64,000 nucleotides of DNA from an uncultured Parvularculaceae bacterium (GTDB taxonomy: Bacteria > Pseudomonadota > Alphaproteobacteria > Caulobacterales > Parvularculaceae), in NCBI GenBank assembly GCA_947259375.1, contig CAMYLZ010000025.1, positions 62,001 through 126,000 of the forward strand, read 5' to 3'. Shown in pieces: positions 7,108 to 26,784 of the stretch (position 1 is its first letter; each line of letters begins with the position of its first letter). The notes beneath the pieces are model-generated. The model was not told the DNA's origin. It saw nothing but the letters and a program-made list of their open reading frames with translations, and did not search any database. The position numbers and the translations under genes were made by a program.

Positions 7108-7364
7108 CTTTCCGCTCGGTCGCCGCCGCAGCGCCGATCTTGTCGCCGGCGGCGGTTCTCCATTGTTGAATTGCTGCACGGAACCCTGTCATGTTCAGGT
7201 TAACCATGTGCTGCAAAATGGCGCTTTCAAGAGGTTCAACGTCCGGAAAATCACTCTTCCGTCGCGGCATTCTGAACGGTTAACAAGGCGGGATTATGGC
7301 CGTGGCGGCCAGACTGCGCTATGCCGCCTATTTCGAATGTAACGATCAAAAGGATGGCTTTTCC

Positions 7365-8495
7365 ATGGCGCACCCCCTGAGCGGCGCAAATATCGCAACC
7401 CTGATGACGGTCGCAGGGCGTTCCGGCCTGCCGAGCCATGCCTTGCAAGGGCTGGGGATCGGCCTGGCGGCGCTCGGCCGTTGGCCGTTTTCAACAATCG
7501 AAAAGCTGGTGCTCGAGAGCAAACTGCCGAAAGCTGAGGAAATGCCGGCGCCGGTTTTCATTCTTGGCCATTGGCGATCGGGGACGACGCATCTTTACAA
7601 CATCATGTGCGAGAGCGGCGAATGGGGTTTCGTGCCGCCGGTAGCGACGGGCCTGCCGTGGGATTTGTTCGGCATCGCCAAAGTCTTTAGCCCGCTGCTG
7701 GAGCGCGCTTTGCCCGAGCACCGCTATATCGACAATATTCCGGTGACGCCGACCAGCCCGCAGGAAGACGAAATCGGCATCGCCAATATGTCGGAAGCGT
7801 CGTTCTATCACGGCATCTATTTCCCACGGGCGTTCGCGGAAAATGTCAGCCGCGGGTTGTTCTTCGATGGATGCTCGACGGCGGACGTCCGAAACTGGCG
7901 CAAACAATTCACTTATTTCCTGCGCAAGCTCTATCTGCATCAAGGCGAAAAGCCGCTCTTGATCAAGAACCCGGTTTATACGGCTCGCTTCGCCATGCTG
8001 CGGGAGATGTTCCCGGAGGCGAAATTCATCCACATTCACCGTAATCCGTATGACGTTTTCGTTTCCATGCGGAATTTCTATACAAAGCTGCTGAAGGAAT
8101 TTGCGCTGCAAGGCTATGATCATGTGGATATTGATGAGACAATCCTCTCGGTTTATGACCGGATGATGCGTGCTTATGAGCGTGACGCAGCGGCAGTTCC
8201 CGCCGACCAGCTGGTTGAGCTGCGTTATGATGATCTCGACGCGGACCCCATGGCAGCGCTCGGCAAGGTTTACGATGGGCTGTCGCTGCCCGGTCTCGAA
8301 GAGGCGAGGCCGAAATTCGAGCGCTATCTCGCCTCGGTCGCGACATTCAAGAAGAACAAGTTCGACTATTCCGACGAGGCTGCGGCCAAGGTTGAGGCGC
8401 GTCTTGGCTATTTTATCGAAAAGTGGGGTTATAAGCGGCCGGGCGCGGATGCCGGCAAGGGCGAAGGGGCGCGTCATGGGGAACACGCTGCATAG
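7365..8495 (+). CDS. Sulfotransferase family protein
   Basis: Predicted PAPS-dependent sulfotransferase (Sulfotransfer_3 type) of 376 residues. The 5'-phosphosulfate loop is at about residues 66-78 (ILGHWRSGTTHL). The 3'-phosphate motif is near 220-240 (FIHIHRNPYDVFVSMRNFYT), with Arg-Asn-Pro then Ser as in the family. The acceptor cannot be read from sequence. The gene overlaps the next one by 20 bp and heads a four-gene run ending beside the hopanoid genes, so a lipid or terpenoid acceptor is an attractive but unproven idea. The ATG at 7365 follows AAAAGG and is preferred over 7296, since the protein before it lacks family similarity. Confidence 0.85.
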   Translation: MAHPLSGANIATLMTVAGRSGLPSHALQGLGIGLAALGRWPFSTIEKLVLESKLPKAEEMPAPVFILGHWRSGTTHLYNIMCESGEWGFVPPVATGLPWDLFGIAKVFSPLLERALPEHRYIDNIPVTPTSPQEDEIGIANMSEASFYHGIYFPRAFAENVSRGLFFDGCSTADVRNWRKQFTYFLRKLYLHQGEKPLLIKNPVYTARFAMLREMFPEAKFIHIHRNPYDVFVSMRNFYTKLLKEFALQGYDHVDIDETILSVYDRMMRAYERDAAAVPADQLVELRYDDLDADPMAALGKVYDGLSLPGLEEARPKFERYLASVATFKKNKFDYSDEAAAKVEARLGYFIEKWGYKRPGADAGKGEGARHGEHAA

Positions 8496-9561
8496 TTGGT
8501 TCGCCATTGCTGCGATGGCGACAATGGTATCTGCATGCGGGCGCGCTGAGGCGGGCGGCGCGCGATACAGCCATGAGCAATGCCGGCGCGTCGCGTTGAT
8601 CGGCGTTGATGGCGCGCCCATTATCGGCGCGGAGGACTTGGCGCTCGATGCGGACAATGACCGTCTTTTCGTTTCGGCCTATGATCGCCGCGCAACGGAA
8701 AGGGCCGCAAAGCGCAAGACGGGCGCGCCGCCCAATGGCGGCGTTTACGCCTTGCCCCTCGAAAAGCTGTTCGATCGGCGCGCGGAGGAGGCCAACGTTT
8801 CCTCGCTCGCCGCACCGGCCGATTTCGCCGGCGGCTTGCGCCCGCACGGGCTTTACTATGACGCGGCCAATAAAGAGCTCGTTTTCATCAACCGCACCTA
8901 TGCGCGCGATGGCCGTAAATGGCGGATGACGCCGCAATTGCAGCGTATCGGCGCCAATGGTGAAATGTTTATCGGCGAGGCCAAAACCGCCCCCTGCGCC
9001 GCCAATGACATCGTCAATCATGACGGCCAAATACTGACGTCTTTCGATCATGCGTCATGCGGTTTTGGCGGCGGGCTGGAAGATATCTTCCGGCTGAAGC
9101 GCAGCGGTTATGCAAATGAACATGGCGTCGTCTTTGACAAGGCGGCGTTCGCCAATGGCATCGCGAAACTTGGTAACGGCGATGTCGTGCTGGCGGCGAC
9201 GCGGGAAAACGCCCTCCTGGTGGTGAATGCGGAAAACGGCGATGTACGGCGCCGTATCAAATTACCCGGCGGGCCTGATAATTTGACGCTCGCAGCGGAT
9301 GGCGGAATTGTCGCGGCGACCCATCCGAAAATGCTGAAGCTCGCGTTTAACCGCAAGCTCGGCTGGGGCCGCGCGCCGTCGCGCATCGTCAAGGCGGATA
9401 CGGAGACGGGAGAGGTTGAAGTCTTGTTCGACGACCCGGAAGGCGCGCTGTTTAGCGCCGCTACCGCCGCCATTCAAACCGAAAGCGGGCTCGTCGCCGG
9501 TTCGGTAACCGATGAAGGACTGCTTGTTTGCAGGGACGAAGACGGAGCCGCGCGACCGTGA
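8476..9561 (+). CDS. Paraoxonase/arylesterase-like lipoprotein
   Basis: A 361-residue lipoprotein (lipobox VSAC, Cys21) whose mature part aligns by eye with the six-bladed propeller of paraoxonases, calcium-dependent lactonases and arylesterases. Matching elements are GAED (Glu53, Asp54), RPHGLYYD (His124), NDIV (Asn177), FANGI (Asn227) and DNLTL (Asp268, Asn269), all calcium ligands or active-site residues in PON1. Cys36 and Cys352 sit where PON1 has its closing disulfide. The position of the second PON1 catalytic His seems to be Arg140, so specificity may differ. The ATG at 8476 overlaps the sulfotransferase gene, and the stop overlaps the next start (GTGA). Confidence 0.75.
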   Translation: MGNTLHSWFAIAAMATMVSACGRAEAGGARYSHEQCRRVALIGVDGAPIIGAEDLALDADNDRLFVSAYDRRATERAAKRKTGAPPNGGVYALPLEKLFDRRAEEANVSSLAAPADFAGGLRPHGLYYDAANKELVFINRTYARDGRKWRMTPQLQRIGANGEMFIGEAKTAPCAANDIVNHDGQILTSFDHASCGFGGGLEDIFRLKRSGYANEHGVVFDKAAFANGIAKLGNGDVVLAATRENALLVVNAENGDVRRRIKLPGGPDNLTLAADGGIVAATHPKMLKLAFNRKLGWGRAPSRIVKADTETGEVEVLFDDPEGALFSAATAAIQTESGLVAGSVTDEGLLVCRDEDGAARP

Positions 9562-10547
9562 GCAGCGTCACACTTGTTACAGGCGGCGCCGGCTTCGTCG
9601 GCAAGCACCTCGTCGCCAAATTGCGCGAGCGCGGCGAGCGGGTGCGCTCGTTCGACCTCGCGCCGCCGGCGCATGACGATGACATGCAAGGATCGATTAC
9701 CGACCCGGAGGCTGTCGCCCGTGCGATGGACGGCGTTGCATCTGTGTTTCACCTTGCGGGCAATGCGCAGCTTTGGGCCCGAGACAAGACGATATTCGAC
9801 CGGGTCAATCATCTCGGAACAAAACACGTTGCGGAAGCGGCGCTCCATGCAGATGTCCGTCGTTTCGTTCACTGCTCCAGCTTGACGACGCTGGTGGCGC
9901 GTTCGGCGCCAATCGGTCGATCGCATGCGGATGAAAATATTCGCCTTGAGCCCGCTGATGTGCTTGGGCCATATCCGCGGTCAAAATTGCGGGCCGAACG
10001 CGCGGTCGAGGATGCGATAAAGCGCGGTCTCGATGGGGTGATCGCCGTGCCGACTGAGCCGCTGGGGCCGGGCGACGATAGTCTGACGCCGCCGACGCAG
10101 ATGATTCTCGATTTCGCGAATGGAAAGACGCCTGCTTATATAGATTGCGTGCTGAACTTTGTGCCGGCATCGAGCCTCGCTGACGGACTGATCGCAGCGC
10201 GCGATCGCGGCCGGCGCGGAAATAGCTACCTTCTTGGCGGCGAGAATGTGCCGATGTTCCAATTGCTCACGATGATCGAACAGGCGACCGGGCGGCCGGC
10301 GCTGAAGGTCAAAATGCCCTATTGGGTGGCGCTCGCCGCCGGGGCGGTGGATACAGGACTTGTGGCGGCGGTGACAGGAAAGCCGCCGAAAGCGCCGTTT
10401 ACCGGCGTGCGGCTTGCTGGAAGACAAGTGTCGTTCTCTTCAAAAAAGGCCGCCCGCGAGCTCGACTGGCGCGCCGCGCCCGCGGCGCCGGCATTGCAGG
10501 AAATGCTTGACTGGGCGCGGGAGACGGGACTGCTGAAACCGGTTTGA
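9558..10547 (+). CDS. hpnA: HpnA-like NAD-dependent sugar epimerase/dehydratase
   Basis: Extended short-chain dehydrogenase of 329 residues that resembles the hopanoid-associated epimerase HpnA. The NAD-binding motif TGGAGFVG is at about residues 8-15 and the catalytic Tyr-x3-Lys lies in GPYPRSKLRAE. HpnA-like stretches include NAQLWARD, PAYIDCVLNFV and a GNSYLLGGENV block. HpnA is associated with hopanoid clusters, but its reaction is not firmly established. A 3-beta-hydroxysteroid dehydrogenase-like activity is an alternative. The GTG at 9558 overlaps the preceding stop by 4 bp and matches the family N-terminus; the in-frame extension to 9528 has no support. Its position before hpnB-E supports the call. 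Confidence 0.7.
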   Translation: MSSVTLVTGGAGFVGKHLVAKLRERGERVRSFDLAPPAHDDDMQGSITDPEAVARAMDGVASVFHLAGNAQLWARDKTIFDRVNHLGTKHVAEAALHADVRRFVHCSSLTTLVARSAPIGRSHADENIRLEPADVLGPYPRSKLRAERAVEDAIKRGLDGVIAVPTEPLGPGDDSLTPPTQMILDFANGKTPAYIDCVLNFVPASSLADGLIAARDRGRRGNSYLLGGENVPMFQLLTMIEQATGRPALKVKMPYWVALAAGAVDTGLVAAVTGKPPKAPFTGVRLAGRQVSFSSKKAARELDWRAAPAAPALQEMLDWARETGLLKPV

Positions 10548-10592
10548 GGCTGCTTCAAAAAACGCCATCATGAGCGCCAAAGGGAAGCGATC

Positions 10593-11456
10593 ATGATGAC
10601 GACCGACTCCAGTGATCAGGGCTTGGAAAAATGGCTTGGCGCGCGCGCATTCGAAGATTGGCGGGCGCAATATGATCGCGACGGCTATGTCATCTTTGAA
10701 AATGTTCTCAGCGACCGCGAGTTAAACGACCTTAAGGCGGCGCTGGCGCCTTTCCTTGGTCAAAACCTTAAAGGCAGGAACGAATTTGAAGGCCGGCAGT
10801 CGAACCGGGTCTACGCCATGCTGGCGAAGTCTCCGGTTTTTGCTAACCTCGTCATTCATCCGCTGGCGCTCAGATTTGTCGAGGCGGAGCTTGGCGATGA
10901 TTGTCTGTTGTCAGCCTGCCTCGCCATCAATCTGCATCCGGGCGAAACGCCACAGCCTTGGCATTTTGACGACAGCCATTACCGCTGGCCTCGCCCGCGG
11001 CCGGCGCTGGGCGTGTCGACATTCTGGGCGCTCAGTGATTTGACGCAAACAAATGGCGCGACGGAAGTGCTCCCCGGCAGCCATCTGTGGGGAGATGAAT
11101 TGGTCGAAGGGGCGGTCGCCGAGGGCGATTTTGACAAGCAAGGCCAGCGACAAGGCGATCCCGGCGCGCGGTCCGATGCGGTCAAGGCGGTAATGCCGGC
11201 AGGCTCGCTGATGATCGCCAAAGGAACGCTCTGGCATCGCGGCGGGGCCAATCTGTCCGATTTGCCGCGCCTGATCATCACGCCGCAATATTGTCCGGCC
11301 TGGACGCGGCCGCTGGAAAATATGTCGCTTGCCGTTCCGCCTGAAATTGCAACGTCGCTGCCGCAACGCGCGCAGGAACTCGCTGGATATTCCATCTGCG
11401 CCCCGTTTATGGGCTATGTAGACGGCCGGCACCCGAGGCGGCTTTTGGAGCAATAA
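10593..11456 (+). CDS. PhyH-family Fe(II)/2-oxoglutarate dioxygenase
   Basis: Predicted non-haem iron dioxygenase of the phytanoyl-CoA hydroxylase family, 287 residues. The facial triad is His124-x-Asp126 in WHFDD and His215 in LWHRGGAN. Arg226 in LPRLIITPQY is placed to bind 2-oxoglutarate. These enzymes hydroxylate lipids and secondary metabolites; the substrate here is unknown. It follows the HpnA-like gene by 45 bp on the same strand, so it is likely co-transcribed with the sulfotransferase/paraoxonase/HpnA genes. AGGGAAG precedes two adjacent ATG codons (10593 and 10596), and either could be used. Confidence 0.85.
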   Translation: MMTTDSSDQGLEKWLGARAFEDWRAQYDRDGYVIFENVLSDRELNDLKAALAPFLGQNLKGRNEFEGRQSNRVYAMLAKSPVFANLVIHPLALRFVEAELGDDCLLSACLAINLHPGETPQPWHFDDSHYRWPRPRPALGVSTFWALSDLTQTNGATEVLPGSHLWGDELVEGAVAEGDFDKQGQRQGDPGARSDAVKAVMPAGSLMIAKGTLWHRGGANLSDLPRLIITPQYCPAWTRPLENMSLAVPPEIATSLPQRAQELAGYSICAPFMGYVDGRHPRRLLEQ

Positions 11457-11544: not shown

Positions 11545-12027
11545 ATGAAATTCAAGAGCATTATTGCCGCGATTTCGGTCGATGATGATTTGGCTGACGG
11601 CGTTGTACGGACCGCCGGCGAGTTGGCCGAGCGCGACGGCGCCAAACTGCAATTGGTGAGCGCTTGGCCTGTGCTCAGTACAGCCATTCCTGCGTTTAGC
11701 GGCGAAGCGGCGGCAAATACCGCCGTCGCCGCCGAAGCGATTATCGAGCGCAATCGCGAAGGCCGGCAGCAATGTGAGGACACGCTGAATGATCTGGCGA
11801 AACGCTTGGCGCCGGACGCAATGACGGTTCTGCTTGATGGCGATCCGGCCGAAAAGATCGCTGACTATGCAAAAGAACAGGGCGCCGACCTGATCGTTAC
11901 TGGTTCGCATCAGCGCAATTTCTGGAGCACGCTGTTTCAGGGCAGCGCTTCGCGCGACCTTGTCCGTGAAGCGCCATGTGCGGTGTTCCTTGTGACCAAG
12001 GCATTCGCCGAGAAGGACAAGCGCTAA
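11545..12027 (+). CDS. Universal stress protein (UspA family)
   Basis: Single-domain UspA-type protein of 160 residues. It starts with MKFKSIIAAISVDDD, the typical first strand with its Asp cluster, and ends with the TGSHQRNFWSTLFQGSAS block and the CAVFLV strand. The Gly-Ser-His and later Gly-Ser residues correspond to the ATP-binding loop of ATP-binding Usp proteins. GGAGGGAGG lies upstream of the ATG, an unusually strong ribosome-binding site. It is convergent with hpnB, 9 bp away. Role in stress tolerance is family knowledge; a link to the hopanoid genes is not implied. Confidence 0.88.
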   Translation: MKFKSIIAAISVDDDLADGVVRTAGELAERDGAKLQLVSAWPVLSTAIPAFSGEAAANTAVAAEAIIERNREGRQQCEDTLNDLAKRLAPDAMTVLLDGDPAEKIADYAKEQGADLIVTGSHQRNFWSTLFQGSASRDLVREAPCAVFLVTKAFAEKDKR

Positions 12028-12036
12028 CCCCTTGGG

Positions 12037-13191
12037 CTATTGGTAGGTCCGGCCTTTCCATTGTCCGCCTTTGCCGCGCCAGTAACGCAAGGCCGACGTG
12101 ATTGTCATCGCCGTATAGAGCGACGCCGCGACCGGCAATAAAACAGATTCCCAGGGCGCGCGGCCGTAAAGGCGCAAGGTGGGCCAGTAGGTGTAGCCCA
12201 TCAGACCGCAGGCGATCGCGCTGTAGAATGTCGCCGTCAGGTTGCCGTGGCTGAAAAGGCTCAACATGGTGAGCGGCGCGGCCAGATAAACCAGCGCCAT
12301 GCCGATAACGGCGCCGGCAAGCAGGGCGGGGGAATTCGAAAGTTGCGCATAGGCCGTGCGGGCGACCATGTTCCAGATGGAGGAAAGCGCGCGATTGTCC
12401 CGCAGGCTGACGGCTTCTCGGTCTGCAAGTCCGAGCCAGATCCGGGTCGCCGGCGTCGTGTCCTTGATTTTGCGGGCAAGAGCGCAGTCGTCGATAAGCG
12501 CGCCTTTGAGGGCCGCCATGCCGCCGATCTGTTCAATGGCGTCCGCCCGCGCCAGCATGCAGCCGCCCGCCGCCGCCGCGAGATTGTCCGCCGGATCATT
12601 GGCGCGCGGAAACGGGTAAAGTTTCTGAAAGAAATAGATAAAAGCGGGAATGAGGAATGCCGCCCAGGGCCCCCGCGCGTCCAGCCGCGCCATCAGCGAG
12701 GCGAGGGCGAGCTTGTCGCTTTCCGCCTTGGCCACAAGACGGGTCAGCGTGTCGGGCGCCAGCGCGATGTCTGCGTCGGTCAATAATATGTATTTCGCGC
12801 CCGGCGCGGTCTCAGCCGCGCGGTTGAGCCCGTTCTGAACGGCCCAAAGCTTGCCGCTCCAGCCTTGCGGCAAGGGCGAGACATTGACGACATCCATTTC
12901 GCGCGGCTTGTCGGCGGCGGCGGCCATCGCAATCTCGGCCGTCGCATCGCTGGAGCCGTCGTCGGCAAGGACCACCGACAACCGGCCGGGGTAGTCCGCG
13001 GCCATATGCGCGGCGATTACATTGCCAATTGTCTCCGCCTCGTCGCGGGCGGGAATGACGGCGACGACCTCCGGCCACCTTTCCGGCGCCGGCGCGTCGC
13101 GCAAGCGTTCGGACGCACGCCAGAAGCCGCCTTGCAGGAAGGTGAGCCAGCCCCAGGCAAGCAGCGACAGGAAGGCGATAAAGGTCAACAT
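12037..13191 (-). CDS. hpnB: Hopanoid-associated glycosyltransferase HpnB
   Basis: Family 2 glycosyltransferase of 384 residues with one N-terminal membrane segment (about 1-20) and two or more C-terminal ones (about 285-370). The catalytic domain shows VVAVIPARDEAETIGNV, LADDGSSDATAEIA and the DxD-like LTDADIALAP. The domain order and ends fit HpnB, a hopene-associated glycosyltransferase found in hopanoid clusters; its exact acceptor is not known to me. It is divergent from hpnC, with the starts about 90 bp apart, so the two probably share a promoter region. Confidence 0.85.
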   Translation of the reverse strand: MLTFIAFLSLLAWGWLTFLQGGFWRASERLRDAPAPERWPEVVAVIPARDEAETIGNVIAAHMAADYPGRLSVVLADDGSSDATAEIAMAAAADKPREMDVVNVSPLPQGWSGKLWAVQNGLNRAAETAPGAKYILLTDADIALAPDTLTRLVAKAESDKLALASLMARLDARGPWAAFLIPAFIYFFQKLYPFPRANDPADNLAAAAGGCMLARADAIEQIGGMAALKGALIDDCALARKIKDTTPATRIWLGLADREAVSLRDNRALSSIWNMVARTAYAQLSNSPALLAGAVIGMALVYLAAPLTMLSLFSHGNLTATFYSAIACGLMGYTYWPTLRLYGRAPWESVLLPVAASLYTAMTITSALRYWRGKGGQWKGRTYQ

Positions 13192-13280
13192 GGCGCATGC
13201 GGCTTAGCGCGCTCCGGCGCGCAGTGCAAAGGCGTGTGATCGCGCTTGGAAACAGGGCGAAAATCCGTAAGGTGCGGGCC

Positions 13281-14204
13281 ATGTCAGAGAGCCTTTCATC
13301 GCGCGGCCCCGGCGCCGCCAGCACGCCTCCTCCATCCGCGGCCGAGACCCCGTCCGGCAAAGGCGCGAAAGACGAGAATTTTCCTGTCGGCTCGTTTTTG
13401 TTGCCAAAGCATTTACGGTCTCATGTGGCGAAATTTTACGCTTTTGCCCGCGCCATCGACGATATCGCCGATAATGGCGCCCTGACCGCCGAGGACAAAA
13501 TCGCCCGGTTGAGCGCGTTCGATGCGGCGCTCACCGGCGCGCCCGGCTATGGCCCCGAATATGAAAAAGCGCACGCCTTGCGCGAAAGCATGAGCGAAAC
13601 AGGCGTTACGACGCGGCATGGCTCTGACCTGATTGCCGCTTTCGTGCAGGACGCGAAAAAGAACCGCTACGCATCCTGGGACGAACTCATCGGCTATTGC
13701 GAGCTTTCCGCCAATCCTGTCGGGCGTTATCTGCTCGACCTGCATGGCGAGGACCAGACCGGCTATCGCTATTCCGACGCGCTTTGCACAGTATTGCAGA
13801 TCGTCAATCACTTGCAGGATTGCGGCGACGACCGGCGCGAACTTGATCGCATCTACATCATTGAGGACTGGCTGAAGGAAGAGGGCGAGGATATCACCGT
13901 TGTTGATCGCGACCGCGTCTCGCCGGGTTTTCGCGAGGTGATCGATCGCATGCTCGATGGCTGCGAAGCGCTGATGATGGATGCGCGCAAATTGCCGTCG
14001 GCGCTTTCCTCAAAATCGCTCGCCATGGAATCGGCGGTGATCGTGCGGCTCGCCGACCGGTTGATAAAACTTTTGCGCAAGGGCGATCCGCTGGCGCGCC
14101 GGGTTGCGCTGACCAAATTCGATTTTGCTTCCGCCGGATTACGCGGCGCCGTGGCGGGCTATGTCGAAGCAGGCCGCCTCAATAAAAATCCGGATGCTGA
14201 CTAA
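13281..14204 (+). CDS. hpnC: Squalene synthase HpnC (hydroxysqualene synthase)
   Basis: Trans-prenyltransferase of the squalene/phytoene synthase family, 307 residues. In the HpnCDE route HpnC converts presqualene diphosphate to hydroxysqualene. The first aspartate-rich motif is in FARAIDDIADN, the second in IVNHLQDCGDDRRELDR. A Ser/Pro-rich stretch of about 35 residues precedes the domain. The ATG at 13281 is chosen because the domain follows and because further upstream in-frame starts run into the hpnB promoter region. The stop overlaps the hpnD start (TAATG), so the pair is translationally coupled. Confidence 0.92.
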   Translation: MSESLSSRGPGAASTPPPSAAETPSGKGAKDENFPVGSFLLPKHLRSHVAKFYAFARAIDDIADNGALTAEDKIARLSAFDAALTGAPGYGPEYEKAHALRESMSETGVTTRHGSDLIAAFVQDAKKNRYASWDELIGYCELSANPVGRYLLDLHGEDQTGYRYSDALCTVLQIVNHLQDCGDDRRELDRIYIIEDWLKEEGEDITVVDRDRVSPGFREVIDRMLDGCEALMMDARKLPSALSSKSLAMESAVIVRLADRLIKLLRKGDPLARRVALTKFDFASAGLRGAVAGYVEAGRLNKNPDAD

Positions 14205-15079
14205 TGGCCGCAGTCCTTCCGACTTCACTCGAAGATGCGCGCCGCCATGCCTATAAGACGGTACAACGCTCGCGAACATCCTTCGGGCCCGGCATGCGGA
14301 TCCTTTCAAAGGCGCGCCGCGAAGGCATGTATGCGGTTTACGCCTTTTGCCGCGAGGTTGACGATATCGCTGATGAAGGCGGTGCGGTTGAAGAAAAATG
14401 TGAGGGCCTTTCCGGCTGGCGGCGCGAGATTGACCGGGTGTTCGCCGGCAAACCGCAATATCCGACCGGGGTGGCGCTGCTTGAGGCAGTCCGGCAATTC
14501 GATCTGCCCAAGGAAGAGTTTATCCTCATGATCGAGGGCATGGAGATGGACGCCAAGGGCCCTGTCGTCGCGCCCTCGCTGGATGCGCTTTTTGCCTATA
14601 CGCGCCGTGTCGCCGGCGCTGCCGGCCAGTTATCGATGCCGGTATTTGGCGCGCCGAAGGGCGCGGCCTCCGATGACTTTGCGATTGCGCTCGGCGATGC
14701 GCTGCAATTCACCAATATCTTGCGCGATATCGAACAGGACGCCGGCGAAGGGCGTTTGTATCTGCCGCGTGAGCTGTTGCAAAAGCACGGCTGCCCGCTG
14801 GCGCCGGAAAATATCGTCGATGCGCCGGGGCTGCCCGGCGTGCGCGCTGATATGGCGGCGATCGCGCGCGAAAAATTCGCCTGCGCCCGCGAAGCGCTGA
14901 AGTCGCTCGATTGGCGTGTGCTGCGCCCGGCGTTGCTGATGATGGGCGTTTATGAGCGTTATCTCGACAAGATGATGGCGCGGGGCTGGGACAATGGCCA
15001 GCCGCGCGTGACGCTGTCGAAAGCGGAAAAAGCACTGATCGCTCTGCGCTGGCTCATTGCGCCGAAGCTGGAAGGATGA
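14204..15079 (+). CDS. hpnD: Presqualene diphosphate synthase HpnD
   Basis: Squalene/phytoene synthase family enzyme, 291 residues, that condenses two farnesyl diphosphates to presqualene diphosphate in the HpnCDE pathway. The diagnostic CREVDDIADEGG motif is near residue 48 and the second motif is in QFTNILRDIEQDAGEGRLYLP. Between them are FILMIEGMEMD and YTRRVAGAAGQLS, typical of the family. It starts on the last base of hpnC and is followed after 3 bp by a dioxygenase gene, so the run hpnC-hpnD-oxygenase-hpnE looks like one operon. Confidence 0.93.
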   Translation: MAAVLPTSLEDARRHAYKTVQRSRTSFGPGMRILSKARREGMYAVYAFCREVDDIADEGGAVEEKCEGLSGWRREIDRVFAGKPQYPTGVALLEAVRQFDLPKEEFILMIEGMEMDAKGPVVAPSLDALFAYTRRVAGAAGQLSMPVFGAPKGAASDDFAIALGDALQFTNILRDIEQDAGEGRLYLPRELLQKHGCPLAPENIVDAPGLPGVRADMAAIAREKFACAREALKSLDWRVLRPALLMMGVYERYLDKMMARGWDNGQPRVTLSKAEKALIALRWLIAPKLEG

Positions 15080-15082
15080 GGC

Positions 15083-15805
15083 GTGACGGCCGACGAAAGA
15101 AAATTCCACTCCGGAAAAACGCTTGGGCATGATGATTTCAAAGCGGAATTGATGAAAGAAGCGCCGGGCGTTTTGATGGTCAACAACGCAGTTCCCCCGG
15201 GCGTGCTTGTCGTGGAAAAATTTCTGCCGGCGGAGCTCTGCCAGGGACTGATACAGCGCGCATCTGCGACGGAAGGGAATACAGCCGGTGTATTATCGGC
15301 CGATCCTGGCGGTGCAGTTCAGGCGCGGAACGTGGACACCCGGAAAGTTGAACATTTCACGCTGGATCACTTCGGCGATGACCTCGAACGGATTACGCGC
15401 GCGGCCTATACGGAGTTTCTTACGAGGCATTACCGGGCCGTTTTCGAATGGTATGAAAAACCGGTGGTTCTGCGCTATCGCGAAAAGGGCGAATACACCG
15501 CTCATGCAGACGCCTATAATTGGGACGATGCTGACAAGCGATGGCGGCGCGTGGCCAATCGAGATTTCAGCCTGCTTGTCTACCTGAATGAAAATTATCA
15601 GGGCGGCGAACTGGAGTTCAAATATCTCAATTTTCGATTGAAGCCCGGGGCGGGCATGTTGCTGGCCTTTCCGTCCGATTGGCGCTATGCGCATGCGGCG
15701 CTGCCGGTAGCGGAAGGCGTGAAATATTCAATCGTGTCGTTTGGCGCTGTGAAAGGCGGCCCGCGCCTTGATGCGCCGCCGCCGCCCAATGCAATCATGG
15801 TGTAA
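15083..15805 (+). CDS. 2OG-Fe(II) oxygenase between hpnD and hpnE
   Basis: Prolyl-4-hydroxylase-type dioxygenase fold, 240 residues. The iron triad is His141-x-Asp143 (YTAHADAYNW) and His204 (YAHAALPV). Lys214 in EGVKYSIVSF fits the residue that binds the 2-oxoglutarate carboxylate, and GGELEF is the characteristic strand between. It starts at a GTG 3 bp after hpnD, with GGAAGGATGA as ribosome-binding site, and ends 3 bp before hpnE. Such tight packing inside the squalene operon suggests it acts on a squalene-pathway intermediate or hopanoid. A protein or small-molecule substrate is equally possible on sequence alone. Confidence 0.85.
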   Translation: MTADERKFHSGKTLGHDDFKAELMKEAPGVLMVNNAVPPGVLVVEKFLPAELCQGLIQRASATEGNTAGVLSADPGGAVQARNVDTRKVEHFTLDHFGDDLERITRAAYTEFLTRHYRAVFEWYEKPVVLRYREKGEYTAHADAYNWDDADKRWRRVANRDFSLLVYLNENYQGGELEFKYLNFRLKPGAGMLLAFPSDWRYAHAALPVAEGVKYSIVSFGAVKGGPRLDAPPPPNAIMV

Positions 15806-15808
15806 GGG

Positions 15809-17080
15809 ATGGTTCGTGTTCACATTATCGGGGCCGGGTTGTCTGGGCTCGCTGCTGCCGTCCGGCTTGTTGAGAACGATGTGGCGGTGACGGTCTATGA
15901 AGGCGCCGGACAGGCCGGCGGCCGCTGTCGAACCTTCTACGACAAGCACCTTGAGCGCGAGATTGATAACGGCAATCACCTTATCATGTCCGGCAACAAG
16001 TCGGCGCTTTCTTACCTTGAGCGGATTGGCGCGGAAGATCCGCTGACCGGTCCTGCCTTTGCTGTCTATCCGTTTGTAGACGTCGCAACGGGCAAGCGCT
16101 GGAATGTGCGCATTAATGAAGGGCCGATCCCCTTTTGGGTATTCGATAGTCAGACGCGCGTGCCGGATACGAGGCTGATGGATTACGTCAAGGCGGGCGC
16201 GATCGCTTTCGCCAATGACGACCAAACGGTCGCGGACATTGTCGATCAGAACAGCCCGCTTTATCAACGCTTCTGGGAGCCGTTGACGCTTGCGGTGCTC
16301 AATACAACGCCCGCGAAGGGCCAAGCGAAACTGTTGTGGCGCGTCATTCGCGAGACGTTCTTGCTTGGCGGTCAGGCCTCCATTCCCTTGACGGCGCGGA
16401 CCGGGCTTGGTCACGCTTTCATCGACCCGGCGGTGAAGTTCATCGAAGACCATGGCGGGCTGGTGCGGCTCAATGCGCGCCTTCGCAATGTCTGGATGGA
16501 AGGCGGCGAGGTGACGAGCCTCAATTTCTCCGAAGAAACCGTGACATTGGAGGAAGGCGATAAGGTGATTTTCGCCATTCCGCCGACGCGGCTTAAAAAC
16601 CTTTTGCCGGATGTCGACCCGCCGGAGGATGACGCCAGCATTTTGAATATTCATTTCAGGATGGGCGGGCCGGTTCCTAAAAATACGCTCGGAGACGGGC
16701 CGTTTATCGGCATGATCGGCTCTGACGGGCAGTGGGCGTTTGTGCGCGACGATGTCATCAGCCTGACGACCTCGGCGTCGAATGCAATCGGTACGGATGA
16801 CCGGCCGAACGACGATGTGGTCGCGAAAATCTGGCGCGAAACGCAAATCGCGCTCGGCCTGGGTGATCAGGAATATGAACGCGTAAGGGTGATCCGTGAA
16901 AAACGCGCAACGCCCGACCAGTCGCCGGACGGTGCGAGAAAGCGCCTCAAGCCCGAAACCCAATGGCGCAACCTCTTCCTCGCCGGCGATCATACGGATA
17001 CAGGCGTTCCTGCAACCATTGAAGGCTCGATCCGGTCAGGGGAGCGCGCGGCGGCGTTGGTCTTAAGGAGCAAGGCATGA
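15809..17080 (+). CDS. hpnE: Hydroxysqualene dehydroxylase HpnE
   Basis: FAD-dependent amine-oxidase/desaturase-like enzyme, 423 residues. HpnE reduces hydroxysqualene to squalene, the last HpnCDE step. The dinucleotide-binding motif GAGLSGLAAA is at residues 8-17, followed by the GGRCRTFYD flavin-contact stretch and EIDNGNHL. The C-terminal FAD motif is in LFLAGDHTDTGVPATIEGSI. The mid-region (PFWVFDSQTR, LNTTPAKGQAKLLWRVI) also fits HpnE rather than phytoene desaturase. It overlaps hpnG by 4 bp (ATGA), so no squalene-hopene cyclase gene lies between them. Confidence 0.93.
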   Translation: MVRVHIIGAGLSGLAAAVRLVENDVAVTVYEGAGQAGGRCRTFYDKHLEREIDNGNHLIMSGNKSALSYLERIGAEDPLTGPAFAVYPFVDVATGKRWNVRINEGPIPFWVFDSQTRVPDTRLMDYVKAGAIAFANDDQTVADIVDQNSPLYQRFWEPLTLAVLNTTPAKGQAKLLWRVIRETFLLGGQASIPLTARTGLGHAFIDPAVKFIEDHGGLVRLNARLRNVWMEGGEVTSLNFSEETVTLEEGDKVIFAIPPTRLKNLLPDVDPPEDDASILNIHFRMGGPVPKNTLGDGPFIGMIGSDGQWAFVRDDVISLTTSASNAIGTDDRPNDDVVAKIWRETQIALGLGDQEYERVRVIREKRATPDQSPDGARKRLKPETQWRNLFLAGDHTDTGVPATIEGSIRSGERAAALVLRSKA

Positions 17081-17853
17081 CTGGCTTCATCGCCGTCATT
17101 TGCGGGCTGAAATCCGAAGCAGCGGCTGTTGCGGCGAGTGTTGACACGTCGAAAATCCGCATTGGCGTATCCGGGGCGAATGCGCAGCGTGCGGAGGAAC
17201 TGGCGCGAGAATTTTGCACGACAGGCGCAAAAGCGATTGTCTCGGTCGGCGTTTCCGGCGGGCTCGACCCCGCGCTTCAGCCCGGCGATCTCGTCATAGG
17301 CAAGACGGTATATGCCGCAGACGGCGCAGTCTTCGAAAGTGGCGGTGCGTTGTTAGCCGCTCTAAACGCTACTCATTCCTGCGAAAACAGGAATCCAGAC
17401 AATATTAGCGCCGCCAATAAGGATCCCGGCCTGCGCGGGGTTGGGCAGGGCCGCTTTACTCTCAAAACGCTTTTCGGTGCGGATGAAATCATCGCCAGTG
17501 CGGCGCAAAAACGCGCCCTGTTCGAGCAATACGCCGCAGCCGCGGTCGACATGGAAAGCCATGGCGCGGCACGGGCTGCGCATCAGGCCGGCGTGCCGTT
17601 CCTCGCCATTCGCGCCATCGCCGACCCGGCCGACCGGGCCTTGCCGAAGGCGGCGCTCAATGCTGTCGCGCCTGACGGCTCTACACGGGTCTTCAAAACA
17701 CTCGGGGCCGCATTGCGCGAGCCCCGTCAATTCCCTGCACTGATGAAACTGGGAAGCGACAGCGCTACGGCGTTAAAGACGTTACGCAGCGACCTCGGCC
17801 TTCTATTTAACTGCCTTTTTATAACCACGCTCAGTGATGAGAAACTAGCGTGA
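17077..17853 (+). CDS. hpnG: Hopanoid phosphorylase HpnG, with an in-frame repeat insertion
   Basis: Nucleoside-phosphorylase-like enzyme, 258 residues, that converts adenosylhopane to a phosphoribosyl-type hopane. The phosphorylase core is seen in GVSGGLDPALQPGDLVIG, the purine-site VDMESHGAA (about 165-173) and PFLAIRAIADPADR. Two oddities stand out. Residues 99-123 (THSCENRNPD onward) are encoded by a palindromic repeat inserted in frame. The last 20 or so residues turn hydrophobic and are encoded by AT-richer DNA leading into a foreign-looking gene, so the natural C-terminus may have been replaced. The repeat falls in a surface-loop-like region before the VDMES core, so activity may survive. 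Confidence 0.85.
   Translation: MTGFIAVICGLKSEAAAVAASVDTSKIRIGVSGANAQRAEELAREFCTTGAKAIVSVGVSGGLDPALQPGDLVIGKTVYAADGAVFESGGALLAALNATHSCENRNPDNISAANKDPGLRGVGQGRFTLKTLFGADEIIASAAQKRALFEQYAAAAVDMESHGAARAAHQAGVPFLAIRAIADPADRALPKAALNAVAPDGSTRVFKTLGAALREPRQFPALMKLGSDSATALKTLRSDLGLLFNCLFITTLSDEKLA
17371..17445 (+). repeat. Palindromic dispersed repeat inserted in hpnG
   Basis: An imperfect inverted repeat of 75 bp. One end contains ATTCCTGCGAAAACAGGAAT (17375-17394), the other GGATCCCGG...GCGCGGGG (17421-17440). It resembles the common intergenic repeat with arms like ATTCCCGCGAAAGCGGGAAT, seen in many proteobacteria. Its length is a multiple of three and it has no stop in the hpnG frame, so it adds 25 residues to the protein. 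Confidence 0.65.
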
Positions 17854-19060: not shown

Positions 19061-20215
19061 CTAAGCCGCAGCCTCGGCCTTGTCCTTGGCCGCTTTTTTC
19101 TCAGCCTCGATCTTTGACATTTCGGTGGCGACGAGTTTCTCGTGCACGTCTTCGGCCGGCCGCGCGTTGGACAGGTCAATCTCCGGCGCCATCGGGCCTT
19201 CGGTCTTGATCTTGAACATGTCAGGGATCTTGAACATTTTGAACGGGTTCTTCACCGCGTCCATGGCGGCGGTCGGCTCATAGCCGCAATGGGCCATACA
19301 GTTCGAGCATTTCTCGTATTTGCCGGTGCCGTATTTGTCCCAGTCGGTCGTCTCCATCAGCTCTTTAAAGCTAGAGACATAGCCTTCGCCGAGGAGGTAA
19401 CACGGCTTTTGCCAGCCGAAGACATTGCGCGTCGGCGAGCCCCAGGGCGTGCACATATATTCTTCATTGCCGGCGAGGAAGTTGAGGAACAGCGATGAAT
19501 GCGACAGGTTCCATTTCTTGCCGCGCTCCTTGCCGATCCGAAAGATGTCGCGGAAGAGGTTCTTGGTCTTTTCGCGCGAAAGGAAATGGTCCTTGTCCTC
19601 GGCGCGTTCATAGGCGTAGCCCGGCGAGATCGAAATGCCGACGCCGAGATCGGTGGCGTAGTCGAGATAATCGGCGACCTGCTCAGCCGTCATATTGTCG
19701 AAGATCGTCGCGTTGACATTGACCTGAAAGCCGCGGTCCTGCGCCGCTTTGATCGCCTTGATCGCGATCTTGAAGGTGCCTTTCTGATCGACCGCGTGGT
19801 CATGTTCTTCTTCTAGGCCGTCGAGATGGACCGAGAAGAACAGGAAAGGCGACGGCTTGAAGAGATCGAGTTTCTTCTCAAGCAGCAATGCGTTGGTGCA
19901 CAGCGAAACGAATTTCTTGCGTGCGACGATGCCTTCTACGATCTCCGCGATTTCCTTGTGGATCAGCGGCTCGCCGCCCGGTACGGCGACGACCGGCGCG
20001 CCGCATTCGTCAACGGCGTCGAGGCATTCTTGCACCGTAAGGCGCTTGTTCAAAATAGGCGCGGGATAATCAATCTTGCCGCAGCCCGGGCAAGCAAGGT
20101 TGCAGCGGAACAATGGTTCCAGAAACAGCACCAACGGATATTTCTCGCGGCCCATGAGGGTTTGCTTGGCGACATAAGCGCCGACGCGGATCTGCTGGTG
20201 AAGCGATACTGACAT
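19061..20215 (-). CDS. hpnH: Adenosyl-hopene transferase HpnH (radical SAM)
   Basis: Radical SAM enzyme of 384 residues that adds 5'-deoxyadenosine to diploptene, making adenosylhopane. The [4Fe-4S] motif is Cys38-x3-Cys42-x2-Cys45 (RCNLACPGC), followed by VPGGEPLIHKEIAEI. The C-terminal SPASM-like cysteines are in EKCSNCMAHCGYEP. The start at 20215 (MSVSLHQQIRVGAYV) matches HpnH proteins and has CGGAGA upstream; an ATG at 20260 would add 15 unsupported residues. The C-terminal tail is Lys/Glu/Ala-rich. It follows ispH by 53 bp on the same strand. Confidence 0.95.
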   Translation of the reverse strand: MSVSLHQQIRVGAYVAKQTLMGREKYPLVLFLEPLFRCNLACPGCGKIDYPAPILNKRLTVQECLDAVDECGAPVVAVPGGEPLIHKEIAEIVEGIVARKKFVSLCTNALLLEKKLDLFKPSPFLFFSVHLDGLEEEHDHAVDQKGTFKIAIKAIKAAQDRGFQVNVNATIFDNMTAEQVADYLDYATDLGVGISISPGYAYERAEDKDHFLSREKTKNLFRDIFRIGKERGKKWNLSHSSLFLNFLAGNEEYMCTPWGSPTRNVFGWQKPCYLLGEGYVSSFKELMETTDWDKYGTGKYEKCSNCMAHCGYEPTAAMDAVKNPFKMFKIPDMFKIKTEGPMAPEIDLSNARPAEDVHEKLVATEMSKIEAEKKAAKDKAEAAA

Positions 20216-20268
20216 TGTTCTGTCTCCGGACGATTTGGAGGCCGGCCGCGCCGGCGCCATTGTGGTCT

Positions 20269-23346: not shown

Positions 23347-23973
23347 TTAAGCCGTTTCGGCTTCCAGCCGCTCGATCAGCGCGTCGACGCCATTGGCGAT
23401 GACGAAGGATGAAAATTCTTCGCGTTTCAGCGTGATGATCGAGCCGCCTTCAACGATGATATCGACGATCTTGTTTTCGCCATCGCGATTGCGGATGCGC
23501 CAGACGACGTTCAGCGTCTTACGGTCGCCGATATCGAAGTCGGTGGCGACGAACACATCGCCGCGCGAAGCCGGTTTGGCGTCGATCACCTTATAGGGTT
23601 TGCCGAAAATCTTGTGGAACTGGTCAGCATAGATGCGCGTCATATAACCGGGAAAGGCGGCGTCATATCGGTTGGACTGGGCGTCGTCCATTTCCGAACG
23701 AAAGCGCCGGGCGAGCACAATTCGCGAGATAAATTCGAGGTCCATTTTCTCGGCGAGGAACAGGCGGAATTTAGCGAGCCGCGCCTCTTCGGATAGCGCT
23801 TCATCCGCGAGGGTGACAGACGCCTCGTCGATCAGCGAGCGCGCGAATTCCGTGGCGCTTTCAATCGCAGCGACCTGCGTTTCCTGTACTGGCTCCGGGT
23901 CGGCGGCGACGGCGGGCGCAGCGGCGGAAGCGGCGATGAGCGCGGCAAGAACGCGAACGCGGGACATGAACAT
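23347..23973 (-). CDS. hpnM: Hopanoid-associated MlaC/Ttg2-like protein HpnM
   Basis: Periplasmic protein of the MlaC/toluene-tolerance family, 208 residues, with a signal peptide ending near AVAAD. The mature part has the family's helical start, then FLAEKMDLEFISRIVLARR, a YMTRIYADQF segment and strands ending in IITLKREEFSSFV. MlaC-type proteins carry a lipid, so HpnM is thought to work with HpnN in hopanoid handling. It lies 189 bp downstream of hpnN on the same strand. That gap contains no gene. Confidence 0.85.
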   Translation of the reverse strand: MFMSRVRVLAALIAASAAAPAVAADPEPVQETQVAAIESATEFARSLIDEASVTLADEALSEEARLAKFRLFLAEKMDLEFISRIVLARRFRSEMDDAQSNRYDAAFPGYMTRIYADQFHKIFGKPYKVIDAKPASRGDVFVATDFDIGDRKTLNVVWRIRNRDGENKIVDIIVEGGSIITLKREEFSSFVIANGVDALIERLEAETA

Positions 23974-24162: not shown

Positions 24163-26784
24163 CTAGGGCCTTGTATCTACGTCAAATTTTCTCACAGGCT
24201 CACCCCTTTTCAAACTTCGACGCTCTTCATAGTGAAACGCCGCCGGCAAGACGATGAGCGTGCAAATCAGCGTGAACAAAATGGCGATCGATAATAATTC
24301 GCCCATGGAGGCGGTGCCGCGATGGGGCGATAACATCAAGCTGCCGAAGGATGCGACGGTGGTGAGTGCGGAGAACAACACAGCTCGCGGCGTCGAGGTG
24401 CCGTAAATACCTTCGCCCGCTTCGATCTGACGCTGGCGCATGACAAGGTGGATGCCGCTATCGACGCCAATGCCGATCAGCAGCGGCAGGACGATGACAT
24501 TGGCATAGTTGAAAGGCGTGTTGATGATGACGCCTGTCGCCGCAGTCAGCACCGCCGCCAGCGCCAGCGGGAACAGCATCAGCAGGACGGTTCTGGCTTT
24601 GCGCACCAATAGCCACAAAAATGCGGCGATAATGCCGAATGCGATGGCCGTTGCCTGAAGCATTGAGGCGGATATGGTTTCGCCGGCCTTTCGCGCTTGA
24701 TAAGCGCCGCCTGCGAGATCAGGGATCACCGCTTCGACATCATTGACGAATGCGTCGAGGGCCCGGAAGTCGCGCACATCCGCCTTTGGCATGATATCGA
24801 CGCGCCATTTGCCGTCCGCGCTGAGATAGCGGGAGGTCAGTGATGCGGGCAGCGCTTCATAATCGACATAGTCAGCATTCATTTGCGCCCGGAGCAATGA
24901 AACGAGCTGTGGCCAATAGGCGAATATGTTGTCTTCAATTAGCGAAAGCTGGGCTTCGTTATCCGGATCGACGCTCGCCAACAGCGCGGCGAGGCGGGCG
25001 CCAGGTCCGTCTGTATAGGCGTCGGCAAGGCGGGTTTGCAGTGTCGCAACGCCTTCAGCGGCGGTCGGACCGTCAACAGCGCTTGGCGCTGCCTCCAGGG
25101 CGAATACCAGCGCGCCGGCCGCAAAGTCGATCAGCTCGAGTTTTTCGTCTTGTGCATCGGGGACAAAATCAGGAAGCGAGCGAACGGCATCCACCGTCTC
25201 GAGCCGGCTTGCAGCCTCGGCGGTGGCGATGGCCTCGGCTTCGCTCTCGACGAGCCGGCTCAACCGATAGGGCAAGGTCTGCGGGTCTTCGAACAAAAGG
25301 TTGAAGCCTTTGACTGACGGCGCATTGGGATTGCGAAGCGCCATCTGGTCTGCGTCGAAACGCACTTGCGGCATTAGCAATAGCGCTAACGCGCCAAGCG
25401 CGATCGTGGCGATGGCGATCGGGCCGGACACTGTCATGATCTTTTTAAAGAAGCGGCGGATACGCCCAACGCCGATCTCGCGCGGGCGGCCCTTGAACAG
25501 CGACAGCGCCGCCGGGCCAAATGTGAGCGTAACGACAAGCGCGATAATGACGCCGATAGCGGCAATCACGCCTAGCTGGGCGATGCCGTCAAATTTTGTC
25601 GGTACGAAGGAAAGAAAGGCAAGCGCGGTCGTTGGTCCGGCGAGCGCCAGCGCCGGTCCCACCTCGTGCAGCGCGCCGCGCAGAGCGTCGCCATTTTCCT
25701 GACCGGCTGCGCGCCTTTCCTGCACATGCAGAAACAGGTGAATGGCGAAATCAAGGCCCAACCCCACCAGCAGCACTGTGAAAGCGACCGATACGAGATT
25801 GAGTTCGCCGATGAAAATAGCGGCGACGGCGGAAGTCAGCATCAGCGTGACCACGAGACCGAGCAGCGTCAGCACCGCCATGGCGAGCGAGCGATAGCAC
25901 AGCAGCAGCAAGATGGAGACGAGGATGAATGAGAGCAGGAATGAATAGCCGATGCCGGTGGTCACCGCTTCGAGCTCTTCCAGCCGCAATGTCGGGTCGC
26001 CGGTGATGTACGTTTCGACCCGGCCGCCAAATTCAGCGTCGAGGCGTTCCGTCTCGGCGCGCAGAATATTTATCGCGGCTTTGGCGGGTTGCAGCCGCGT
26101 ATAATCGAGAACCGGACTTGCATAGAGCAGACGGGTATGGGCGTCTTTGGCGGCCAGTTCTTCGTCGATGGCGCCCATCCAGGAAAATGGCCGGCGCTCG
26201 CCTGCGAGCGCTGCTTCGACGGCGTGGCCAAGTTCTGCGTAGAACCGTTGCAGCGTATCGCCCCCCAATTCGGAACGTTCCGCGAGCGCGTCGTTTTCCG
26301 CCATTGTTTCGAATAGCGTTCCGGTGGTCGGACTGGCGACCAGCGTTTCGATCAGGCCGGTTGCCTTGGACATCTGGGTCAGCCGCGATTCGAGCTCAGC
26401 CTCATTGAGATACAAAAGACCGTTTTCCCGAAAAAACGGCTCTTGGGCGGCGGCAAAGACGGCGGTGAATGCGTCTTCCTTTTCTGACAGAGCGCCATAA
26501 AGCGCGCCGGCATAGGCGTCCGCCTCGTCAAGGCTGGGCGCGCGGATAACGACAATGACGTCTTCCTTGATCTGCGGGAAGGCATCGCGCAGCTCTGCCG
26601 CGCGCTGCTGGAACGGCAAGGCCGGATCGAGCATCGCGCTGGTGTCGGTGTTCACTTTCAGATTGCCGGCGGCATAGATGCCGGCAAGGATCGCCAGGAA
26701 CAGGACAGAGGCGGCAAAGGGCGCGCCAGCGCGCCGCGAGCCTTCCGCCAGTGCGGCCAGCAAGGATTCAATGAATTTCAGCAT
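24163..26784 (-). CDS. hpnN: Hopanoid transporter HpnN (RND superfamily)
   Basis: MMPL/RND-type inner-membrane protein, 873 residues, involved in moving hopanoids to the outer membrane in characterised species. The topology is duplicated: TM1 (about 23-42), a large periplasmic loop, a TM bundle (about 270-440), a second loop and a second bundle (about 700-860). RND features include GLGLDFAIHLFLHVQERR and the repeat LLIGIGVDSGIHLVMRQRQ. The start at 26784 has the TM1 helix close behind. It is divergent from the arginine operon; the 156-bp gap should hold both promoters. Confidence 0.93.
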   Translation of the reverse strand: MLKFIESLLAALAEGSRRAGAPFAASVLFLAILAGIYAAGNLKVNTDTSAMLDPALPFQQRAAELRDAFPQIKEDVIVVIRAPSLDEADAYAGALYGALSEKEDAFTAVFAAAQEPFFRENGLLYLNEAELESRLTQMSKATGLIETLVASPTTGTLFETMAENDALAERSELGGDTLQRFYAELGHAVEAALAGERRPFSWMGAIDEELAAKDAHTRLLYASPVLDYTRLQPAKAAINILRAETERLDAEFGGRVETYITGDPTLRLEELEAVTTGIGYSFLLSFILVSILLLLCYRSLAMAVLTLLGLVVTLMLTSAVAAIFIGELNLVSVAFTVLLVGLGLDFAIHLFLHVQERRAAGQENGDALRGALHEVGPALALAGPTTALAFLSFVPTKFDGIAQLGVIAAIGVIIALVVTLTFGPAALSLFKGRPREIGVGRIRRFFKKIMTVSGPIAIATIALGALALLLMPQVRFDADQMALRNPNAPSVKGFNLLFEDPQTLPYRLSRLVESEAEAIATAEAASRLETVDAVRSLPDFVPDAQDEKLELIDFAAGALVFALEAAPSAVDGPTAAEGVATLQTRLADAYTDGPGARLAALLASVDPDNEAQLSLIEDNIFAYWPQLVSLLRAQMNADYVDYEALPASLTSRYLSADGKWRVDIMPKADVRDFRALDAFVNDVEAVIPDLAGGAYQARKAGETISASMLQATAIAFGIIAAFLWLLVRKARTVLLMLFPLALAAVLTAATGVIINTPFNYANVIVLPLLIGIGVDSGIHLVMRQRQIEAGEGIYGTSTPRAVLFSALTTVASFGSLMLSPHRGTASMGELLSIAILFTLICTLIVLPAAFHYEERRSLKRGEPVRKFDVDTRP

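Follow-up and report, generated by a model that had tools for sequence, protein, structure and literature searches.

What is a sulfotransferase doing beside the genes for hopanoid synthesis? The question is raised by a stretch of 64,000 nucleotides (the window) from the 3.2-Mb alphaproteobacterial genome of an uncultured Parvularculaceae bacterium (contig CAMYLZ010000025.1), in which four genes on the + strand, at 7365-11456, encode a PAPS (3'-phosphoadenosine 5'-phosphosulfate)-type sulfotransferase (ST, 7365..8495), a paraoxonase-fold lipoprotein (LP, 8476..9561), an HpnA-like short-chain dehydrogenase/reductase (SDR, 9558..10547, GTG start) and a PhyH-type dioxygenase (10593..11456). A reading made from the letters alone (the sequence-only reading) had taken these genes as a co-directional run beside the hpn genes, in which the first three overlap (by 20 and 4 bp) and which might act together in lipid tailoring. 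The coordinates confirm this description: the run adjoins hpnB-C-D-E-G-H, ST and LP overlap by 20 bp, LP and the HpnA-like gene by 4 bp, and PhyH begins 45 bp downstream of the latter. We conclude with high confidence that ST, LP and the HpnA-like gene form a conserved hopanoid-locus module, from which PhyH is excluded, and we propose that ST sulfates a hopanoid.

Conservation in the family and link to squalene-hopene cyclase

A set of 80 genomes (the window's own and 79 relatives) was searched with models of ST, LP, PhyH, HpnC and squalene-hopene cyclase (shc), using E ≤ 1e-60 for ST, E ≤ 1e-34 for LP and the cut-off of its own model for shc. ST was found in 38 of the 80 genomes and shc in 38, and the two sets of genomes, own genome included, are identical; the best ST match in the remaining 42 was 1.7e-8. 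ST lies at the hpn locus in 37 of the 38 shc-positive genomes (two of these loci are broken across contigs), the exception being G070. LP was also found in 38/80, a set that differs from that of ST by the loss of G070, where the LP match is weaker, and the gain of G018, a 76% complete genome whose contig ends within the locus and in which LP is present and ST and shc were not found. In another genus of the family, G028 carries shc, hpnC, ST and LP; in its three congeners shc and ST are absent, the LP matches are at best 2.8e-10 and the HpnC matches do not exceed 130 bits.

The arrangement of the genes is conserved as well. In 35 of the 38 family genomes that have the locus, a single contig carries ST, LP and the HpnA-like gene together with hpnB or hpnC; the remaining three loci lie at contig ends or breaks (G012, G035, G018). 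With start codons picked mechanically, the ST/LP overlap is exactly 20 bp in 22/37 locus pairs and the LP/HpnA overlap exactly 4 bp in 29/38; the recurrence of these overlaps indicates that the gene arrangement is not due to chance. In the window genome shc (L066, G000:C12) is on a separate contig from ST, away from the hpn locus; in G028, G218, G294, G357 and Azospirillum brasilense it is part of the cluster.

Operon neighbours may be co-inherited within one family, and the linkage could then be that of passengers with no shared function. We find this hardly credible, given that the same trio occurs with different flanks (TamA/TamB-like genes in most family genomes, hpnN in G028) and in other families and phyla, and that the trio is absent together with shc, even though shc is on another contig here.

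PhyH behaves differently. The protein matches PF05721 at 106.8 bits (cut-off 22), and 23 of the 28 genomes of the genus have its gene at the locus, which is what favours a single pathway of all four genes, as the sequence-only reading had proposed. The gene is absent from the locus in the other five genomes of the genus and in all ten trio-carrying genomes of five other genera; it lies elsewhere in G002, G007, G029, G037 and G044 (∼17-18 kb away in G029 and G037), and homologues 60-63% identical occur in G045 and G068, both of which lack shc. PhyH was therefore rejected as a member of the module, being patchy at the locus and present in shc-lacking genomes; it would be an optional neighbour within this genus. 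A four-gene pathway is thus very improbable, and as a general module it is largely refuted. What survives of the original proposal is the part concerning ST, LP and the HpnA-like SDR, with ST in 38/38 shc-positive genomes, at the hpn locus in 37 of them and, as described below, beside hpn genes in distant bacteria.

The class sample and distant bacteria

A sample of the class comprising 290 genomes, the window's own included, was searched at E ≤ 1e-90 for ST and E ≤ 1e-60 for shc. ST was present in 8/290 and shc in 72/290, and all eight ST genomes carried shc. With the own genome removed, shc was present in 7/7 ST genomes as against 71/289 overall (Fisher p 4e-5, uncorrected for kinship). ST thus occurs in ∼1/9 of the hopanoid makers in this sample. 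The full cluster, in the order hpnN / ST-LP-HpnA / hpnB / hpnC-D-E-shc-hpnG / hpnH-ispH, was found in G028 (L165) and in one other family, where three genomes have it (L157, L158, L164); G193 has the same full cluster with shc located elsewhere. In A. brasilense, ST-LP stands among hpnA-like, hpnM, hpnN, shc, hpnG and hpnH genes. Two entries, G081 and G219, have identical coordinates and are apparently one genome.

Of the 105 proteins in the ST tree, which omits fragments shorter than 300 amino acids and the named duplicates of family loci (L068-L079), 66 form a hopanoid-linked clade with a Shimodaira-Hasegawa-like approximate likelihood-ratio (SH-aLRT) support of 91. Its sister is a small paralogous group from Azospirillum and Acetobacteraceae, and the other STs fall outside. 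When species genomes were scanned with the ST profile (best 80 of 570 candidate loci, so that the absence of a species is uninformative), the clade extended to Gammaproteobacteria, including the isolate Litchfieldella (L097). Members from Cyanobacteriota, Planctomycetota, Verrucomicrobiota and Myxococcota come from metagenome-assembled genomes (MAGs) only; all ST loci from outside Pseudomonadota are MAG contigs, which could be misbinned.

Beyond the main family, 35 further clade loci were considered, among them several on short contigs and four of Azospirillum type that are nearly identical; 31 are in the ST tree (G028 as L063), L111 is too short for it, and L157, L159 and L161 were assigned by profile score or gene neighbours. 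Of these, 30/35 have an hpn gene no more than 5 kb away and 28/35 have an HpnA-like gene no more than 2.5 kb away. The loci with no hpn gene within 5 kb are L061, L098, L099, L101 and L111, three of which are on contigs shorter than 8 kb. At 35 control loci carrying other STs (L113-L147), hpn matches in the flanks numbered 0/35. Matches to hpn genes come from tblastn searches with the window proteins at 1e-5, which divergent copies may escape, at control loci too. The presence of shc was checked for all 33 loci L080-L112 and for 17 of the 35 control loci (16 added genomes): at E < 1e-60 it was found in 29 of 30 genomes of L080-L105 and L108-L111, the miss being a 1.8-Mb MAG, and in 0/3 of the Azospirillum paralogue genomes (L106, L107, L112).

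Chance linkage of ST to hpn genes was rejected on the basis of this distant conservation, judged against the 35 other ST loci. The homologues of ST, LP and the HpnA-like gene co-occur with hpn genes and shc; they are not usually found far from hpn genes or in genomes without them, ST being at the locus in 37 of 38 genomes and the association extending to distant bacteria. The trio is a unit in Alphaproteobacteria and is coupled to the hopanoid genes.

Genome linkage of this kind cannot name a substrate, and the module might instead sulfate a different lipid of the envelope (a carotenoid, lipid A or one derived from squalene) required only by cells that make hopanoids. Bacterial carotenoid sulfates are known, some family genomes carry extra SQS_PSY genes, and in most of the family genomes the module adjoins TamA/TamB envelope genes. 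The linkage across families is to hpnN, hpnM, hpnH and shc, as judged without a systematic search for lipid A or crt genes. In addition, six family members (G033, G036, G040, G041, G045 and G046), in which shc is not above its cut-off, have one SQS_PSY gene and no ST at E ≤ 1e-60. The SQS_PSY gene of these genomes scores 107-128 bits against HpnC and is probably a phytoene synthase, so that a carotenoid substrate is weakened by relatives that have such a gene and lack ST. We consider another envelope lipid unlikely, if a serious alternative.

The sulfotransferase

ST matches the Pfam family Sulfotransfer_3 at 109.3 bits (cut-off 27). The GHWRSGTTHLYN and HRNPYDVFVSMRNF motifs are present in an alignment of 24 rows, across which R71-S72-G73-T74-T75, R226 and S234 are invariant; we take these residues, which are also kept in generic ST relatives, to form the 5'-phosphosulfate loop and the 3'-phosphate site. 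Marks of the hopanoid-linked clade together with its sister group are D135 (Glu in most generic STs), P92 and G96. The ATG at 7365 was preferred as start over a longer mechanical open reading frame from 7296, as MAHPL opens 23/24 aligned ST proteins, the starts of these proteins being chosen as those nearest the window's start. As judged from these motifs, ST is predicted to transfer sulfonate from PAPS. PAPS is probably available, because an APS (adenosine 5'-phosphosulfate) kinase gene is present in the window genome; the distribution of this gene is uninformative, 41/48 genomes carrying it, shc-less relatives included.

Two arrangements around paralogues deserve record. In a Myxococcales MAG (L102:8391-11077) two tandem ST genes lie between shc- and hpnH-like genes, and one of them only belongs to the hopanoid-linked clade. 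Further ST paralogues in Azospirillaceae and in the class member G385 (L099, L106, L107, L112, L162) have no hpn matches around them, and three of these are in shc-less genomes.

The ST model has a mean predicted local distance difference test (pLDDT) score of 84.5, and its closest solved folds are mycobacterial STF1 and STF9 (2zq5, 2z6v), with a template-modelling (TM) score of about 0.6 and a difference in sequence reflected in 16-17% identity; we know of no hopanoid context for either. The fold matches also include retinol dehydratase, the ST domains of curacin and olefin synthases and sorghum LGS1, which acts in 'sulfation-assisted' ring formation, and which presumably all use sulfonation as an activation. 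Sulfonation by ST could accordingly be an activating step only, the sulfate being lost by elimination or ring closure to leave an anhydro or unsaturated hopanoid. The closest folds, those of STF1 and STF9, speak against this.

So does the product of the nearest characterised relative, identified by gene layout only. BT_0416, a Bacteroides sulfotransferase, produces cholesterol sulfate both in vitro and in vivo, and beside it BT_0411-0415 are putative sulfate uptake and PAPS genes, according to excerpts of the source (PMC9417993). A Rikenellaceae ST (L125), 34-35% identical to the window ST, lies in a cluster (L125:3347-11222) in the order cysQ, a gene for a 617-amino-acid protein (no NCBIfam match at 1e-30), cysC, cysD, cysN and ST, which resembles the BT_0416 layout as excerpted there. 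From layout and phylum we infer that L125 corresponds to BT_0416. It has no hpn matches around it and falls outside the hopanoid-linked clade, unlike the window ST, which sits within that clade at an hpn locus. On this comparison of gene layout, and as far as the excerpts go, BT_0416 is like the role proposed for ST in being a PAPS-dependent sulfotransferase with a polycyclic isoprenoid substrate, and it leaves the sulfate on its product. A transient sulfonation is, on balance, improbable.

The HpnA-like dehydrogenase

The SDR matches the Pfam family Epimerase at 92 bits. It is like HpnA, the hopanoid-associated sugar epimerase, in that TIGR03466 is its best-scoring curated model and its gene is at a hopanoid locus, and unlike it in scoring 297 bits, below the cut-off of 367.65. 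The same is true of the ST-linked HpnA of diverse loci, 10/10 of which score 249-350 bits, below the cut-off, with TIGR03466 still the best model, while canonical HpnA, above the cut-off, was found in 23 of 30 chosen ST-less hopanoid makers of the class sample.

A tree of 72 rows (with 13 of the 39 family HpnA rows, one per near-duplicate, and without the broken gene L196) separates 28 canonical rows from the others by a branch of length 1.3, with an SH-aLRT support of 100. The other side holds 40 linked rows (39 beside ST, one beside LP) and four rows from ST-less genomes. Every ST-adjacent HpnA placed in the tree, the window's among them, falls in this non-canonical subfamily. The two kinds coexist in G070, G083, G100, G103 and G109, and in G070 the second HpnA copy lies directly 3' of the LP gene.

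The paraoxonase-like lipoprotein

LP carries the lipobox VSAC at residues 18-21, with Gly at +2. Under the sorting rule for lipoproteins, Gly at this position goes with transfer to the outer membrane, and LP is probably an exported outer-membrane lipoprotein, as read from this signal. Searches of Pfam gave no family at 1e-3, and Pfam and NCBIfam gave nothing above cut-off.

The label 'paraoxonase-like' given to LP by the sequence-only reading was nevertheless borne out by two routes. The structure model (pLDDT 90.6) has the serum paraoxonase PON1 as its best Foldseek match (E 3.3e-15, TM 0.68/0.74), and a profile of 20 LP rows detects PON1 from sequence alone (E 5.5e-6). In the profile alignment PON1 N168/D169, N224, D269/N270 and H115 pair with conserved LP residues. 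LP N177, N227, D268 and N269, aligned to PON1 calcium ligands, are invariant in all 20 rows; we take the ligands of the catalytic calcium in PON1 to be E53, N168, N224, D269 and N270. A counterpart of E53, which lies outside the aligned stretch, is indicated by position and invariance only. LP thus shares with PON1 the propeller fold and the residues aligned to its ligands and to H115. It differs in being a bacterial lipoprotein, 18% identical, and in the His115-His134 pair, which is presumably the PON1 dyad: H115 corresponds to H124 (19/20 rows) and H134 to a nearly invariant Arg140. We read LP as a putative hydrolase of the paraoxonase type.

Other genes of the window

Downstream of PhyH, and like it outside the module, is a gene for a universal stress protein (Usp, 11545..12027, +, PF00582), followed by the hpnB glycosyltransferase gene (12037..13191, -, TIGR03469 481 bits, above cut-off). 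On the + strand there follow hpnC (13197..14204, TIGR03464 275 bits, above cut-off), hpnD (14204..15079, TIGR03465 278.2 bits, just below the cut-off of 278.6), hpnE (15809..17080, TIGR03467 358 bits, above cut-off) and hpnG (17077..17853, TIGR03468 180.5 bits, just below the cut-off of 187.1). Between hpnD and hpnE is a gene for a 2-oxoglutarate (2OG)-Fe(II) oxygenase (15083..15805, +, PF13640 53 bits). It has tblastn matches in 12/44 loci including its own, the other 11 at 34-51% identity, some loci not spanning the spot, and it is doubled in G021. The sequence-only reading had noted neither this gene nor the position of shc on a separate contig. An alpha/beta hydrolase gene (PETase/BD-FAE-like, 17918-18991, -) separates hpnG from hpnH (19061..20260, -, TIGR03470 530 bits, above cut-off). 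After hpnH come ispH (-), the farnesyl diphosphate synthase gene, an HpnM-like gene (23347..23973, -, TIGR03481 71 bits, below the cut-off of 160) and the hpnN hopanoid transporter gene (24163..26784, -, TIGR03480 765 bits, above the cut-off of 752), beside which are M20 peptidase, AstA arginine succinyltransferase and aldehyde dehydrogenase genes (26941-30664). On the other side, TamA/TamB-like envelope genes (1523-7179) lie directly upstream of ST and divergent from it; such genes flank ST in most family loci, and in G028 hpnN occupies their place.

Discussion

The best explanation of these observations, to which we assign a probability of about 55%, is that ST sulfates a hopanoid and that LP and the HpnA-like SDR process the product. 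A cytosolic ST would use PAPS to sulfonate a hydroxyl group on the hopanoid side chain (of ribosylhopane or bacteriohopanetetrol) to give an acidic hopanoid, and the HpnA-like SDR would oxidise, reduce or epimerise the same sugar-derived side chain. HpnN would export the product, and LP, as a calcium-dependent paraoxonase-type hydrolase anchored outside the inner membrane, would open a lactone or ester of it or trim it. Hopanoid tailoring is a known kind of process, and the modification would be new. HpnI/HpnK/HpnJ, HpnO, HpnP and HpnR decorate the hopanoid side chain or ring A, as is proposed for the module, and we know of no sulfotransferase among them. The genes hpnI/J/K are often inside the hpn cluster, according to excerpts of a 2025 survey of 54 Alphaproteobacteria (PMC12583986). 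In the same excerpts, genes near hpn clusters gave no obvious candidates except HpnA, B, L and M, which are listed as uncharacterised.

Several observations weigh against sulfation of a hopanoid by the trio. Because LP is on the side away from the cytosol, a shared pathway requires an export step partway. LP was seen beside ST in alphaproteobacterial loci only and not in the cyanobacterial, gammaproteobacterial, planctomycete, verrucomicrobial or myxobacterial loci. The non-canonical HpnA subfamily occurs in four genomes that lack ST, and thus does not require it. In G070, ST is distant from hpnC, shc and LP, and in Skermanella aerolata a clade ST is present without surrounding hpn genes. The control loci are a partly weak control, as 5 of the 16 control genomes carry shc at E < 1e-60 and 11 do not. 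Finally, in the open-access literature searched we found no sulfated, sulfonated or anionic hopanoid and no gene for one; in Acetobacteraceae and Entotheonella papers that name both a hopanoid and a sulfotransferase, the excerpts place the sulfotransferase in other clusters.

Lipid data bear on the same question. In the excerpted survey, adenosylhopane was the only hopanoid found in A. brasilense, and A. brasilense, S. aerolata and Microvirga massiliensis gave no Rohmer products despite having six key hpn genes (PMC12583986). S. aerolata and A. brasilense (in strains other than the one surveyed) carry a clade ST. Sulfation was considered as an explanation of the absent Rohmer products in A. 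brasilense and is reduced to a lead, C-35 sulfate still permitting Rohmer cleavage. Because a C-35 sulfate alone should still yield these products, the A. brasilense data, to the extent excerpted, weigh against the proposal unless the sulfate sits closer to the ring or the side chain is a different one.

The wider statement is evenly poised in our judgement: that Pseudomonadota, and perhaps also Cyanobacteriota, Planctomycetota, Verrucomicrobiota and Myxococcota (from MAGs only), make sulfated acidic hopanoids by means of a dedicated ST and a second HpnA subfamily, joined in Alphaproteobacteria by a paraoxonase-like lipoprotein. If true, it would add a new class of hopanoid head group and give an orphan HpnA family a chemistry, and the role of HpnA-type proteins would become testable in culturable hosts such as A. 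brasilense and Amphiplicatus metriothermophilus. Hopanoids are the main bacterial counterparts of sterols and serve as geological biomarkers; a conserved ST at their locus predicts a charged class of hopanoid, parallel to cholesterol sulfate, that biomarker work may overlook.

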